A stretch of 41,964 bases of DNA from positions 1 through 41,964 of IMG/VR virus record IMGVR_UViG_3300042562_000964. One strand, 5' to 3'. This stretch comes from a virus. The notes beneath the pieces were generated by a model. It had not been told where the DNA came from and ran no database searches. It saw only the letters and a program-made list of their open reading frames with translations. This document shows, piece by piece, positions 3,236 to 29,778 of the stretch. How positions within the stretch are numbered: the stretch's first letter is position 1; the number at the start of each line of letters is the position of its first letter. The translations under genes were made by a program, and so were the position numbers.

Positions 3236-3283
3236 CCCCAGCACCACCGGGAGAGAGAAAAGGAAGGGTTGGTGGTGCTGGGG
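3236..3283 (-). terminator. Long 13-bp hairpin downstream of the first pentapeptide gene
   Basis: CCCCAGCACCACC (3236-3248) and GGTGGTGCTGGGG (3271-3283) are perfect inverted repeats around a 22-base purine/pyrimidine-biased loop. No T-run follows on the minus strand. It could be a terminator of the pentapeptide gene or a regulatory stem for the 246-aa gene, because one arm is complementary to that gene's ribosome-binding stretch at 3182-3190. Confidence 0.6.
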
Positions 3284-6456: not shown

Positions 6457-6641
6457 CCCTCAGACAGTTGAGCGACGGCTTCAGCCCTCGCTAGAGAGGC
6501 ATCTTCAGCGTCAGAGAATGTTCCAAGATAGAATCTCTGGCCACCCCGAGTCACCTCGGCCACGAACCGATTACCCCATGAAGTGCGGTACACACCCCTT
6601 GGCAGGTCTCTGGCAGGGTTCGTAGTTGCTTTAGGAATCAT
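6453..6641 (-). CDS. Stand-alone AP2-like DNA-binding domain protein
   Basis: A 62-aa protein consisting of little more than one AP2/ERF-type domain: residues 16-55 contain GVYRTSWGNRFVAEVTRGG, RFYLGTF, and the helix AEDASLARAEAVAQL. This matches the three-strand sheet plus helix pattern (YRGV..W..W.A.I......LGTF...EEAA.AY). In phages the domain is usually fused to HNH endonucleases; here no nuclease is attached. ATG 6641 overlaps the upstream stop in an ATGA junction. It is the last gene of the long leftward operon and could be a regulator. Confidence 0.85.
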   Translation of the reverse strand: MIPKATTNPARDLPRGVYRTSWGNRFVAEVTRGGQRFYLGTFSDAEDASLARAEAVAQLSEG

Positions 6642-7936
6642 CCGCTAACCACAGCGTCAAGGATGTCATCGGACGGGATAGCATCCTCAAGCTGGAGAGA
6701 TGCGTTGCCTACGGCTGACCCGAAGAGGCGAGAAAGTGCCCCACCACCGGCGCTAGTGCCACGAGCTTCCAAGCTCACTCTGAGGGTATCCCTAGAGTCC
6801 AAGACATCTTGCATCTTGGAGGTCAGACTGAACATCCGATCCATCTCTCGCCCAACCTCTGGGGATAGCTCTTGCCCAGTAATCTCCTCGGCAAATCGGG
6901 CTTGGAGCACCCGCTGGGTCTGGATCTCTAGCACCGCTTGGAGTGTTCTCTGGAGCTGGTCTTTGGTCCGAATCTCGACAGGGATTGAGTACGCACAGGA
7001 CTGATCTGGCTCAGACGCTGGACAAGAATCTGACAGGTAGCAGTTGTTGCACTGGCGCAGACTCTCGTGCACGGACTCGATGATGATGTTCTCTTCAGAG
7101 ACCCCCTGAAGGTCCGTGGACTGTTCCAAGAATGCACTGATAACAGGTAGGACGTGCCGCTTTCTACCGGGGGGTGTATCAAGTACCCGAGGCTCGGTGC
7201 CGCTTTCTGGCGAGTGGATTATGACCGGGTTAGTTACTATAGGAGGGGTCTCAGAGGTGTTGTCTGCGGAATCCTCAAAGGCAGTCCAAGACCGGATAGC
7301 TAGAAGTGTCACAGCATCAGGGTCATCAACAAGCACGGCGCTCACATCGACACCTAAGTTCTCAATGTCCTCGGCGTGCTTCTGACGTACCTCGGACTTA
7401 GATGTAGCGCTATACCTGCATATCTTGTTACCGTCCCATACCTGAGTCTCTCCATGCTTCTGGACAGACCACCATGCGGATGATACAAGGACATCGTACT
7501 TATTAACCCCAACGCTCTTCCCGGTAATCACTCCAAGGACTGAATCCCGCTTCCTAGCAGACAGCACCCTGCGATTCAGCGTCGAGTCCTTGAATACTCG
7601 GTCAGTCACCACAAGGCCGGATTCAATAAACTGCCTAGGCAGCTCCCCCTCACCGTTCCACAGGGGTAGGTACATCTCAGCGTTTGACCATTCTTCAGGG
7701 CCAATGATGAGGCTCGGGTAGGTACCCATACACTCAATAGCGTCGGCTAGATCCTCGATAGATGAGGATACTGAATCAGTCCAAGCTACCCACTCTTCAG
7801 GCTCGAAGGCTAGCTCCCAGCTAGAGCGATAGTTACGAGTCCAAGCAGCTACGTTGAATGCAACTCGGGGAGCCTCAGACGATAGGTGGTGATGCTGCCG
7901 AGGATTCTCAGCCCCGGTTAACCAGATAGAGGTCAC
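6638..7936 (-). CDS. Large hypothetical protein with Cys cluster, 432 aa
   Basis: Starts at GTG 7936, two bases after the upstream stop. The N-terminal two thirds is mixed with several Trp-rich strands (WTRNYRSSWELAFEPEEWVA). Around residues 290-310 is a Cys cluster, CNNCYLSDSCPASEPDQSC, as in small Fe-S or zinc folds. It is followed by a long helical region (DQLQRTLQAVLEIQTQRVLQ onward) and a Gly-rich tail. I do not recognise it. The position next to the disordered 451-aa protein hints at a late or DNA-packaging-related role, but that is a guess. Confidence 0.8.
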   Translation of the reverse strand: MTSIWLTGAENPRQHHHLSSEAPRVAFNVAAWTRNYRSSWELAFEPEEWVAWTDSVSSSIEDLADAIECMGTYPSLIIGPEEWSNAEMYLPLWNGEGELPRQFIESGLVVTDRVFKDSTLNRRVLSARKRDSVLGVITGKSVGVNKYDVLVSSAWWSVQKHGETQVWDGNKICRYSATSKSEVRQKHAEDIENLGVDVSAVLVDDPDAVTLLAIRSWTAFEDSADNTSETPPIVTNPVIIHSPESGTEPRVLDTPPGRKRHVLPVISAFLEQSTDLQGVSEENIIIESVHESLRQCNNCYLSDSCPASEPDQSCAYSIPVEIRTKDQLQRTLQAVLEIQTQRVLQARFAEEITGQELSPEVGREMDRMFSLTSKMQDVLDSRDTLRVSLEARGTSAGGGALSRLFGSAVGNASLQLEDAIPSDDILDAVVSG

Positions 7937-12464: not shown

Positions 12465-13039
12465 TATCGACCGGGGTAGGCCATGCCTACGCCCATTCCG
12501 GGTCCGCTCCATGGGGGAGCCATATGACGCAGCTGGGCTGCCCTATCAGGATTATGCTGATCCCATTCCACAGTGCCAGTTCTGCCCGGAGTCCCCTTAA
12601 TACCGACTCTGGCGAGATCCCCTGTCATTGGAACCTTAGCCCCTTGAGTCATCGGAGCCATCCCAGCTTCCATAAGAATGCCCGGGGGGACATACCGCTT
12701 ACCAAGAGACTGAGCCAGCAGTCCATCAGTGGGCTGCATCTCTGCGGGCCAGAAATAGTCCCTGCCATCTAAGCGTTCGCCTTTATGTACTCCCCGGGAG
12801 TACGGCTTATTATCTGAACGCTCTCTGAGACCTTCTCGGAGTCGATCCTGACGACGAGTCTGGACTGTGCCGACGTACCCGTCTGGGTACTGGGCATCAG
12901 GGGTCCGGCGATGCATGGCCCGAGCAGCATCCAGCGGATCGTGGAAGAACGGCTGCGGACCAGCGACTTCAGCAGCACGAAATGGGGCATCCCCTGCGGG
13001 ATAAGCACCGCTCTGCTGCCACTGCGTGAAGGAAGCCAT
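12464..13039 (-). CDS. Hypothetical Gly/Pro/Arg-rich protein, 191 aa
   Basis: ATG 13039 (MASFTQWQQSGAYPAGDAPF). The sequence is rich in Pro, Gly, Arg and Met, with aromatic turns (PFFHDPLDAARAMHR, YSRGVHKGERLDGRDYFWP) and a Gly/Met-rich end (WSGPGMGVGMAYPGR). It appears largely extended or disordered, more typical of a virion-associated protein than an enzyme. I recognise no named family. Confidence 0.75.
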   Translation of the reverse strand: MASFTQWQQSGAYPAGDAPFRAAEVAGPQPFFHDPLDAARAMHRRTPDAQYPDGYVGTVQTRRQDRLREGLRERSDNKPYSRGVHKGERLDGRDYFWPAEMQPTDGLLAQSLGKRYVPPGILMEAGMAPMTQGAKVPMTGDLARVGIKGTPGRTGTVEWDQHNPDRAAQLRHMAPPWSGPGMGVGMAYPGR

Positions 13040-26031: not shown

Positions 26032-27402
26032 TTAGCGGGGGCGAGAACCTTGCCACGGTGAGTCCACCCAGTCAAGGTAATCCGAGGTTTGGGCTGAAAT
26101 AATCCACTCGTAGCCAACCCATTCCGGTAATCCTGATGCACTTAGCGGAATGATTATGACCGCTTCACTAGCTGCTTTTTCCTCAGCAGATGCCTTATTT
26201 CTAGAGGCATTTGCCTTAATTCTTTGAGATTCTACCCGACCCGCTCTGGCCGCTTCCGCCTGCACCGCCCGGTCCTTGTCGGCTTGAGAGATCCACCCAG
26301 ACTTGACCAGCGATGCTCGGGTCTGGGCTACCCGAGGCGACAGGTGCCGCCAGAGATCCCAGACGCCCTTTTCAGGGTTCGGCTTGTAGGCCCATCCCGG
26401 AGATTGGGCCGCAACCTGTGCACAGAAGTGATCGATAATTGCATGTACAAGTTCCTCATCCTCATCGTGATCCGGCAGCAGTGTGCCCTTAATCCACGAG
26501 ATGCAAGCTACCCGAGACTTCACGGTTCCCCACGGCTTTCGGGGATACTCGGCACCTAGCGAATTGTTGTGGGAGTGAGCATGCCAGCTTTCATCGAAGT
26601 GCGCAAGCGCCTTTGATGCCGGAGTTCCCGAGCCGGGTCTTGAATCTGAGCTGGAAGGCTTATCGGGATCTGCTCCGAACACAGTTGGCACATCATCGTC
26701 GGGTGGTCGTCTTTTCATGGGATTCTCTTTCGGTTTGGCTGTGCGGCGGCGAAGCCGCTGCCTGACTATGTCAGGGGTATTATCCTGACTAGTACTAATA
26801 TTTGTATCTATATATATACTTAAATCGTGTGCACGCGAGGCACCATTTGTAGATTGATTTGTACTGGTATCCTCGACCCCAGTGTCTGTATGGGTATCTG
26901 GTATTAATTCGGGGTCCGTATGTAATTTGTAAGTACCTTCTGAGGGGTATTCTGCGGGTATCGTGTAACCATCAAACTGATGGTTAACGGTCATCTCGTT
27001 AACCATCAAAATAGGTGTATCTACAGTCCACATCTCATTGTAGTTTTCGATGAAATTGAGCATGATCGGGTCTATTGAGAACACGGGGAGCATGTACTTC
27101 TTCTTTGCATTCTTGGGCTGCATGTCTGGAAGTAGCTCGCCCACGATGATGCCTCGATTCCGGAGCATGCGTAGGTGTCGTTCGAGTGTCGGTTTGCTGA
27201 GGCCCCAGTGGGATGCCCAGTCGGCTTGAGTCTGTAGCTGCACCCACATCCATGGTCTTGTAGGAGTACAGCGCTCTACGAACAGGACGAGCAACTTGTA
27301 CTCAGGTCCTAGCCCGAGGTGAGCCTTTGCAGCAGGAAGGTTGCGCAGGACAGATCGCCTCCGCTGGTAGAACTCTTCAACTTGATTTCTAGATAGAGTC
27401 AT
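26032..27402 (-). CDS. Replication-initiator-like winged-helix protein
   Basis: From ATG 27402 (MTLSRNQVEEFYQRR), with GAGGA 8 bases upstream, 456 aa. The N-terminal domain has a winged-helix read-head: TQADWASHWGLSKPTLERHL, then RMLRNRGII, as in phage initiators. A central low-complexity linker (about 170-270, Thr/Ser/Asp/Pro-rich) spans the AT-rich repeat region. A C-terminal domain has basic helices (QIRRR-like) and DLDWVDSPWQGSRPR-like end. First gene of the leftward operon and next to the DnaB/loader pair. Initiator is the best guess; a regulator is the alternative. Confidence 0.72.
   Translation of the reverse strand: MTLSRNQVEEFYQRRRSVLRNLPAAKAHLGLGPEYKLLVLFVERCTPTRPWMWVQLQTQADWASHWGLSKPTLERHLRMLRNRGIIVGELLPDMQPKNAKKKYMLPVFSIDPIMLNFIENYNEMWTVDTPILMVNEMTVNHQFDGYTIPAEYPSEGTYKLHTDPELIPDTHTDTGVEDTSTNQSTNGASRAHDLSIYIDTNISTSQDNTPDIVRQRLRRRTAKPKENPMKRRPPDDDVPTVFGADPDKPSSSDSRPGSGTPASKALAHFDESWHAHSHNNSLGAEYPRKPWGTVKSRVACISWIKGTLLPDHDEDEELVHAIIDHFCAQVAAQSPGWAYKPNPEKGVWDLWRHLSPRVAQTRASLVKSGWISQADKDRAVQAEAARAGRVESQRIKANASRNKASAEEKAASEAVIIIPLSASGLPEWVGYEWIISAQTSDYLDWVDSPWQGSRPR
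26758..27008. other. Candidate replication origin inside the initiator gene
   Basis: A cluster of inverted and direct repeats in the linker-coding part: CCTGACTATGTCAGG (26761-26775) with CCTGACTAG repeated at 26784, an AT-rich run (26790-26826), four GGGTAT copies, and three TAACCATCA copies in alternating orientation at 26966-26974, 26978-26986 (inverted) and 27000-27008. The last two form an 11-bp inverted repeat GATGGTTAACG/CGTTAACCATC. Lambda O-type initiators bind repeats within their own gene. Confidence 0.5.
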
Positions 27403-27555
27403 CCTATTATTCCTCGTGTGACATAGCCGGTTGTGTGTGTATGTATCCGGCATTGTTACCACTCCGGCTCAGGTCCGGTTCGGTGTTTTCATCCTTCGCC
27501 GGATCGGGCCTCGGCCATCTCCGGTCTTGCGGTTGGTATGTCTAGCACATCCCGC

Positions 27556-27584
27556 TTGACCAATGCACTACTCATCTGTATTAT
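27556..27584 (+). promoter_or_regulatory. Sigma70-type promoter of the WhiB gene
   Basis: TTGACC (27556-27561), a 17-base spacer and TATTAT (27579-27584), predicting a transcript start near 27591. The 243-base gap between the divergent initiator (27402) and WhiB gene otherwise holds no gene; CCGG-rich stretches on the leftward side are seen but no convincing leftward promoter. Confidence 0.75.
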
Positions 27585-27645
27585 CTCGGGATGTACAGAG
27601 TTACCGCTTCATAGCGTGTATGCAGATAGTTCATCACGGGGCGCT

Positions 27646-27933
27646 ATGAACGCTTACCTGATTTCTCAGGTGGCCGAAGAAGCAGCTTGTAAAGGAGCTA
27701 GTAGTTCTCTGTTCTACCCTGAAACGGGTGGGCAGTCTAATACTGCACTCCGGATATGCCAGTACTGCCCCGTACAGCAGTTATGTTTAAAGTATGCGCT
27801 GAGCGCTAACGAGTACTACGGAGTATGGGGCGGTCACAGCGAGCGCTCTAGACGAAGAATCCAACGAAGAATAGACAACGGACAACTAACCTTGGAAGAG
27901 GCATCGAAATGTCAGATACGAACATTCAAGTAA
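27646..27933 (+). CDS. WhiB-like transcription factor, 95 aa
   Basis: WhiB domain with four Cys for a 4Fe-4S cluster: C15, C38, C41 and C47 (AACKGA, RICQYCPVQQLC), followed by the G59-VWGG63 turn and basic C-terminal SERSRRRIQRR. Such proteins bind an Fe-S cluster and sigma factor, controlling host or phage transcription; mycobacteriophage TM4 WhiB acts in superinfection exclusion. I start at ATG 27646 because the transcript begins near 27591; longer frames are unlikely. First gene of the plus island. Confidence 0.92.
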   Translation: MNAYLISQVAEEAACKGASSSLFYPETGGQSNTALRICQYCPVQQLCLKYALSANEYYGVWGGHSERSRRRIQRRIDNGQLTLEEASKCQIRTFK

Positions 27934-28406
27934 TTACTGGAGACACAATCAAGTACTTAGGTACTGGGTTTATGGGTCCACGAGACGTAGAAGTAACTGG
28001 TGGCCAAGCGTCTACCATCCTCAACTTCCCGTCAGGGAAGCTAACCACCTACATGTCCGGCGAGACCCGCTGGATGCGCTGCTTTGAGGGCGAGTACCAG
28101 CCCCTTAAGGCTGGGCAGCAGAAGTACTACAGCATGGAAGACCTTCTAGTGCTGGCCATGCTTATCGATACCTCAGAGCACAACATCAGTTACAGCCTTC
28201 GCTGCTCACTGGCCGATGGCATCCGCAGCGAGCTTGCTCTCATGTTAGATAAGAACCCCACATGGGACGAGCTAACGATTCCCCTGAGGGATGACAATGA
28301 AGAGGGTCCGGTCGTAACCGCCAGCAGTGGCCGGATTACCATGACCTACCTGCCTCGCTGGGACATCCTGTGGTACGACTTCATGGGTTTGTTTAATAAG
28401 GCTTGA
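27909..28406 (+). CDS. Hypothetical protein, 165 aa
   Basis: Starts at ATG 27909, 25 bases inside the WhiB gene, with GAAGAGG upstream. Mixed alpha/beta with a Gly-rich start (GTGFMGPRDVEVTGG), SGETRWMRCFEGEYQPL and a C-terminal WDILWYDFMGLF. No membrane segment, Cys pair or enzyme motif. Its stop overlaps the -35 box of the next promoter. No family recognised. Confidence 0.8.
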   Translation: MSDTNIQVITGDTIKYLGTGFMGPRDVEVTGGQASTILNFPSGKLTTYMSGETRWMRCFEGEYQPLKAGQQKYYSMEDLLVLAMLIDTSEHNISYSLRCSLADGIRSELALMLDKNPTWDELTIPLRDDNEEGPVVTASSGRITMTYLPRWDILWYDFMGLFNKA

Positions 28407-28431
28407 CAGGTCGGTAGTTGTTGATTACTAT
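28403..28431 (+). promoter_or_regulatory. Sigma70-type promoter for the structured leader
   Basis: TTGACA (28403-28408), exactly 17 bases, TACTAT (28426-28431). Predicted start near 28438, about four bases before the left arm of a 15-bp stem. The -35 box contains the stop codon of the previous gene. Confidence 0.8.
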
Positions 28432-28437
28432 CTACCC

Positions 28438-28591
28438 TACAAGTTATTCCAGTACCATCCAGCACCGTGGAAATTGGTGGCATCAGTCAGGATAAGGTCT
28501 GCATTGCGCCGAGTACCGTTGGTCTTTCTATTTCCCAGCGGCCTGATCAGAACTGTCTATATAAGGTGTGCCATCGGGTACTGGAATAACT
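28438..28591 (+). ncRNA. Structured leader RNA closed by a 15-bp stem
   Basis: AGTTATTCCAGTACC (28442-28456) and GGTACTGGAATAACT (28577-28591) are perfectly complementary over 15 bases, enclosing about 120 bases. Inside, CCGTTGG (28516-28522) can pair with CCAGCGG (28535-28541; 7 bp, one G-U), and GCACC (28462-28466) with GGTGT (28565-28569). The ribosome-binding AGGAG lies 7 bases after the stem. A riboswitch-like leader or a stable RNA would both fit. Confidence 0.65.
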
Positions 28592-28607
28592 ACTTACTAG
28601 GAGCATC

Positions 28608-28892
28608 GTGGAAATAACCGTACTAGCAGCTCTATCCGGCATCTTCTCCCAGAGGGTGCTAGAGGCTGTGCTTGCTGAGATAGCTGGCCGCCAGAAACGG
28701 GGGATCTATGCCCCCATGGTGGTCAACTGGATCGTGCTTACTATCGGTGTATCCATATTCGTGCTCTTGTCTGACGGGGCTGTTATCCTTATAGCCCCGG
28801 CGTTTGCACTAGCACTACTGATCGACCGTTTAGATGGATACTTGTTAACCAGATCTGATGAGTCGATCAGAAACATTGTAAGACGGCGCTAG
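28608..28892 (+). CDS. Small two-span membrane protein, 94 aa
   Basis: GTG 28608 after AGGAG. Residues about 40-58 (NWIVLTIGVSIFVLLSDG) and about 59-75 (AVILIAPAFALALLID) form a hydrophobic pair, with an N-terminal amphipathic helix (ITVLAALSGIFSQRVLEAV) and a basic C-terminus RNIVRRR. Could be a holin-like or exclusion protein; it is not next to an endolysin gene. It is expressed behind an elaborate leader, suggesting that its level must be controlled. Confidence 0.8.
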   Translation: MEITVLAALSGIFSQRVLEAVLAEIAGRQKRGIYAPMVVNWIVLTIGVSIFVLLSDGAVILIAPAFALALLIDRLDGYLLTRSDESIRNIVRRR

Positions 28893-28926
28893 CGATATCC
28901 GTTAGCCCTAATCGTGGAGGTAAATT

Positions 28927-29778
28927 GTGAAATACATCGTTGCAGGAACTGGCTCAATGCCTTTGAAAGAAGTTCGGGATGCTCTTGAAGACCTCCCTGA
29001 CAGAGACACAGTTGTCTACCTAGCTGAGGCAGGTACTCGGATAGGGATTGGCGAGCAGATCCAGTCATCTGGACTGTTCAAGGAGTTCTTCTTGTCAGTT
29101 GATAAGGAGAGCACGTTTGACGGCCTTCTGGGTAGTCATGACGAACTTATCGCCGGGTCCGAGGATGTCCTCCAATGGGATCTTAAGGCCGATCTTCTCG
29201 GGTCTACCGAAGAGGTTCAGGTGCTGGCCCTGTTCAATGGGGAAGAGGAGACGGACGCCTTTATCTTCCAGATCGTGGAGGCTGCTCTCGATGCCGGAAT
29301 CCGGTGTCGAGCGTTCAACAATCAGATGTATGACATCCAGTTGAATGATGCTCCTGCTGAACCCATAGCTGAGCTTGTTGAGGAGATCCAAGAGGCTGTG
29401 GCAGTCACTGCGGACATCCCTACTCCTGACCTCACTTTGGATGAGATTAAGGCCCTGAATCGATCTGAACTTAAGGCGTTTGCCAAGGGTATCGGCGCAT
29501 CTCCTAGCGACTGGCGAGTTCGATCTGACATCCTTGATGCGGTTATTGACCGCCTAGAGTTGGTGGTAGTCCTACCTGAGGAGAGCATTGTGGAAGACTC
29601 TACCGATGACGTAGACCTAGACCAGCTGTCTGATGAGATTGCCGCTCTGGATGATCACGGTGTGGACGTAGAGACTGTTTCGATTGATGTATCTCAGGTG
29701 CTAGCTGATCTTCTTGACTCAATCACTGCTGCCATCACTGAGGCTTCTAAGGTCCTTCGATCTGGGAGTGAAGGATGA
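28927..29778 (+). CDS. Rossmann-like protein with SAP/Rho-N-like C-terminal helix, 283 aa
   Basis: GTG 28927 after GGAGG. The first 140 residues start KYIVAGTGSM with a glycine-rich strand-turn and alternate strands and helices in a Rossmann-like pattern. Residues about 165-210 (LTLDEIKALNRSELKAFAKG and onward) resemble the helix-extended-helix of SAP or Rho-N domains, which bind nucleic acid or proteins. The C-terminus is acidic and helical. No catalytic motif seen. Overlaps the lipoprotein start (ATGA), so they are coupled. Confidence 0.75.
   Translation: MKYIVAGTGSMPLKEVRDALEDLPDRDTVVYLAEAGTRIGIGEQIQSSGLFKEFFLSVDKESTFDGLLGSHDELIAGSEDVLQWDLKADLLGSTEEVQVLALFNGEEETDAFIFQIVEAALDAGIRCRAFNNQMYDIQLNDAPAEPIAELVEEIQEAVAVTADIPTPDLTLDEIKALNRSELKAFAKGIGASPSDWRVRSDILDAVIDRLELVVVLPEESIVEDSTDDVDLDQLSDEIAALDDHGVDVETVSIDVSQVLADLLDSITAAITEASKVLRSGSEG

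Follow-up and report, generated by a model that had tools for sequence, protein, structure and literature searches.

The window analyzed here, the whole stretch of DNA considered, is the complete virus record IMGVR_UViG_3300042562_000964 of 41,964 bases. Proteins recognized in it include DnaB, a primase, a helicase, DNA polymerase A, RecA and baseplate proteins, and on the basis of these the nearest named phages are the BRock-like Streptomyces phages. A similar gene order was found in GiJojo, BRock, pSt2308 and LuckySocke, with ≈30–39% identity between the window and the BRock-like phages in DnaB, baseplate J and the helicase; relatives in IMG/VR reach up to 57% identity in the helicase. We take the window to be part of the genome of a distant BRock-like myophage of actinobacteria. 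We infer an actinobacterial host from a WhiB-like gene and from the nearest phages. The gene for this WhiB-like transcription factor (window 27433–27933) heads an inverted block. Elsewhere in the window (6638–7936, minus strand), the C-terminal part of a protein matches the phage queuine tRNA-ribosyltransferase family (phrog_887, E 1.5e-20).

The locus under study holds the following features:

28403–28431, + strand: sigma-70-type promoter-like site, TTGACA-17-TACTAT (consensus matches)
28442–28456, + strand: 5′ arm of the closing stem P1, AGTTATTCCAGTACC (complementarity scan, Markov expectation, pair probabilities)
28457–28576, + strand: interior of 120 nt, with predicted stem P2 and small hairpins (folding no better than shuffles)
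28577–28591, + strand: 3′ arm of P1, GGTACTGGAATAACT (complementarity scan, Markov expectation, pair probabilities)
28599–28603, + strand: Shine–Dalgarno-like AGGAG, outside the stem and upstream of the GTG at 28608 (sequence, pair probabilities, folding with and without the leader)
28608–28892, + strand: encodes a small two-helix membrane protein of 94 aa and is homologous to a conserved actinophage gene (homologue comparison)
28927–29778, + strand: partner gene, 283 aa, conserved beside the membrane-protein gene (homologue comparison)

The two genes form a conserved pair, located downstream of the tail genes in many actinophage-like loci and inverted in several. Homologues of the membrane protein are widespread (83–94 aa, with partner proteins of ≈265–375 aa) and ≈21–30% identical to that of the window; the family can be recognized by its end, which reads SDESIRNIVRRR in the window and SDEALNAIMRRR in the related locus L009. 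Its two helices were read directly from the sequence. The GTG start at 28608 agrees with the homologues. The pair occupies 28608–29778 in the window, 4039–5103 in L009, 3153–4262 in L010, 2653–3817 in L030 and 13010–14644 in L005. It directly follows the last tail gene in L009, L010, L019 and L030. Relative to the helicase, it is inverted in L011, L023, L024, L032 and the window, and in the window it is also inverted relative to the tail and replication genes. The conserved membrane-protein and partner pair of BRock-like phages changes direction between lineages, and because it is inverted in the window and these four loci, it would there need a promoter and transcript of its own. In L030 and L009, the partner protein showed a weak Rho_N-like similarity that stayed below threshold.

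Upstream of the pair, an initial annotation had described a promoter consisting of TTGACA, 17 bases and TACTAT. This sequence is present and matches the consensus at 10 of 12 positions; we treat it as a predicted promoter only. Promoter-like sites were rarer in the scanned region than in shuffled sequence (11 versus 18), and the match taken by itself therefore says little about where transcription starts. No promoter-like site was found on the reverse strand at the leader. Two more promoter-like sites accompany the WhiB-like gene on its own strand, at 27382 and 27556.

The same annotation had proposed that the leader is closed by a perfect 15-bp long-range stem, and this was borne out: the arms of P1 are 15 nt each, 100% complementary and separated by 120 nt, at the distance proposed. 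The 5′ arm begins 11 nt past the −10 hexamer, the transcript start itself being predicted, and the 3′ arm ends ≈8 nt before AGGAG, within the 10 bases previously given for this spacing; the GTG at 28608 follows. When perfect pairs were counted at ≥15 bp and a spacer of 3–200 nt, one was observed, compared to 0.0075 expected per window (mean over 400 copies generated from the window by a first-order Markov model), and a chance origin of P1 is therefore unlikely. That nothing like it occurs elsewhere in the window is correct for perfect long-range pairs, but shorter or closer hairpins are present at 3236/3271 and 3951/4000. No further arm-like site with ≤3 mismatches was found in the window. In the predicted ensemble, all 15 pairs of P1 had probabilities above 0.92 (0.93–1.0).

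The whole leader (28438–28607, 170 nt) folded with a predicted energy of −55 kcal/mol, whereas shuffled sequences averaged −44.1 (z = −2.49). The interior alone was at the shuffled mean (z = 0.08), showing that the unusual stability of the leader comes from P1; with the interior unstructured, selection seems to bear on the stem rather than on what it encloses. P1 and the weaker P2 together make ≈24 bp of predicted helix. The further 7-bp inner stem of the initial annotation is indeed predicted, as a hairpin CCGUUGG/CCAGCGG, but since the interior is no more stable than shuffles, such additional structure is unremarkable. The reverse strand retains the stem and folds less well than the forward strand. 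Any coding signal of the interior is weak and confined to one frame. A hidden 40-aa ORF (28467–28589) scored between the coding and non-coding distributions and lacks a ribosome site; it was not supported, although it may yet be real. No tRNA was found, and Rfam searches at gathering and permissive thresholds returned no family match, only a chance-level snoRNA match.

The ribosome site is free of P1, and the predicted stem does not sequester AGGAG. Instead, the Shine–Dalgarno sequence is predicted to form a local hairpin with codons near the start of the gene, and this hairpin is identical with or without the leader. Deleting the 5′ arm in the model changed the predicted partners and did not free the Shine–Dalgarno sequence. 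A translation switch operated by P1 is thus not predicted. The sensing function or control of ribosome access that had been suggested for the leader finds no support here: the Shine–Dalgarno sequence lies outside the stem and is unaffected by the leader, the interior folds like shuffled sequence, and no known RNA family matches. The P1 leader does not supply any evidence for a new class of sensor.

A second copy of the leader was found only in contig IMGVR_UViG_3300042526_000714 (L003), where it is identical across its whole length and has the same orientation. Over 7.4 kb, two base differences and a 9-bp indel in the partner gene set this contig apart from the window. Position 1 of the contig corresponds to window 28374, which leaves 64 bases ahead of the predicted transcript start and places an assembly break beside the leader. 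As the only other copy is identical, it offers no variation in which compensatory changes or covariation in P1 could show, which is the main limit of the analysis. Neither the region nor its flanking proteins matched any phage by blastn or tblastn, and IMG/VR scans with the membrane protein, the partner gene, a 165-aa gene and an HTH protein returned the near-identical contig only, or nothing. The exact-arm pattern was found in no viral contig other than IMGVR_UViG_3300042526_000714 and in no genome contig. A covariance model of the leader, built from the two identical copies, matched solely the window among 85 sources (1.37 Mb), and nhmmer with the leader likewise matched only the window; by BLAST, nhmmer and covariance model, there was no leader homologue in ≈80 related phage loci. 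A combined search for promoter plus stem in 2.3 Mb of related loci gave three 11-bp matches beyond the window, about the number expected from shuffles; the one in L009 sits in AT-rich sequence. No comparable closing stem was found upstream of the pair in L009, L010, L019, L030, L011, L023, L024, L032 or the BRock-like phages. The annotation had named homologues with the same gene order and no pairing as evidence against its proposal, and this is in part what we observed, in distant homologues of the pair that include inverted ones. Given that the membrane-protein homologues are only ≈21–30% identical, the stem may have been gained in a young lineage or lost in other lineages. No described phage equivalent of the leader stem was found in the literature searched.

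Taken together, P1 is a real sequence feature and probably an ordinary, lineage-specific leader stem. Our preferred reading, to which we tentatively give a probability of roughly 0.4, is that it is a lineage-specific stem at the 5′ end of the mRNA of a relocated gene pair, serving in protection and/or RNase III processing. The pair would then be a small operon with its own promoter, transcribed from TTGACA-17-TACTAT with a start at ≈28438–28439. RNA nucleotides ≈4–18 would pair with ≈140–154, hiding the 5′ end in a 15-bp helix and leaving the ribosome site outside. By this means the membrane-protein/partner mRNA might decay more slowly from its 5′ end (RppH/RNase E/J type), and/or RNase III might cut the helix to give a short RNA and a trimmed mRNA. 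This reading is favored by the perfect pairing well beyond chance expectation, the near-certain pairs of P1 in the ensemble and the placement of P1 between the promoter-like site and the ribosome site, as well as by a Shine–Dalgarno sequence that the stem leaves untouched, the unstructured interior and the inverted gene pair with its need for a separate transcript. Against it, no homologue of the stem occurs in relatives, even where the pair is inverted, and a stabilizing stem is not required to enclose 120 nt. In E. coli, the stabilization of mRNA by 5′-terminal stems is established, according to papers listed in PMC3997798 (Emory, Bouvet and Belasco 1992; Bouvet and Belasco 1992). In Mycolicibacterium, however, stabilization upon RNase E depletion was uncorrelated with predicted structure near 5′ ends (PMC10641625), and end protection may therefore matter less in actinobacteria.

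Several other explanations were considered. It is rather unlikely that P1 is a chance or neutral inverted repeat without function. Its absence from all relatives examined would fit one event in one lineage, and the feature was picked from a scan of many windows; however, the low expectation per window and the location between promoter-like site and ribosome site speak against this. A separately accumulating, stem-closed small RNA of ≈154 nt, cut from the leader or ended there, appears quite unlikely: both predicted ends fall at the stem and the gap has no well-fitting coding frame, but neither a terminator nor a U-run was found after the 3′ arm, Rfam gave no match, and the interior structure is at chance level. 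That such an RNA of ≈154 nt is new, specific to this phage lineage, acts alone (for instance, after processing into a small RNA) and arose along with the inversion of the pair strikes us as highly improbable. We also regard as decidedly unlikely an element acting at the DNA level, whether as paired protein-binding half-sites spaced by 135 bp, as an invertible segment or as the remnant of a small mobile element with 15-bp terminal inverted repeats. A perfect inverted repeat does flank a mostly non-coding segment that is absent from distant relatives, but the window holds no other arm-like site, the arms recur in no viral or genome contig except the near-identical one, with a single orientation in both, and no clear target duplication was seen by eye; RecA was the only recombinase, with no invertase, among the window proteins scanned, which are a subset from a fragment. 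Finally, a ligand- or protein-sensing leader that controls translation or termination is very unlikely, in spite of its position in a 170-nt leader and the confirmed layout, considering that the predicted Shine–Dalgarno pairing is unchanged without the leader, the interior has no excess stability, no terminator-like alternative was found in the leader, and relatives show no conservation. Of the initial proposal, the long-range stem in a leader position, beyond chance expectation, is thus retained, and the sensing or ribosome-access function is not.

If real, the 5′-terminal mRNA stem would offer a clean natural test of whether, in actinobacteria, a long-range helix at the 5′ end serves to protect or process phage mRNA; data from these hosts so far indicate little effect of 5′ structure. 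The more broadly useful result is the recognition of the conserved membrane-protein and partner pair, which in the lineage of the window carries its own leader.

Among known systems, P1 resembles the 5′-terminal stabilizing stem-loops of the E. coli ompA/papA type in that the helix would lie a few nucleotides from the presumed 5′ end, with the ribosome site outside and downstream; the spacing from the −10 hexamer is consistent with a helix that begins ≈5 nt or less from the predicted start. It differs in being long-range and enclosing 120 nt, and in that the 5′ end is predicted from sequence. Processing stems for RNase III are known from the lambda N leader, T7 early mRNA and pre-16S stalks. 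Like these, P1 is a long perfect helix near the end of a leader and a candidate cut site for mRNA trimming, and like that of pre-rRNA it is a long-range helix closing a large interior; however, at 15 bp (≈24 bp with the weaker P2) it is near the lower size for cleavage, and its interior matches no known RNA. BRock, GiJojo, LuckySocke and pSt2308 share the order tail genes, membrane protein, partner gene and DnaB/primase/helicase/PolA. A strong terminator-like hairpin, A-rich, with CTATAGG...CCTATAG followed by a T-rich stretch, lies between the tail operon and the membrane gene of BRock-like Streptomyces phages, at 12870–12960 in L005 and in the equivalent gaps of L006, L007 and L008. In the BRock-like phages, as in the window, the membrane gene stands behind an intergenic gap; unlike in the window, the gap has the terminator-like hairpin, with a short stretch between it and the membrane gene, and no closing stem, and the pair runs in the direction of the tail genes.
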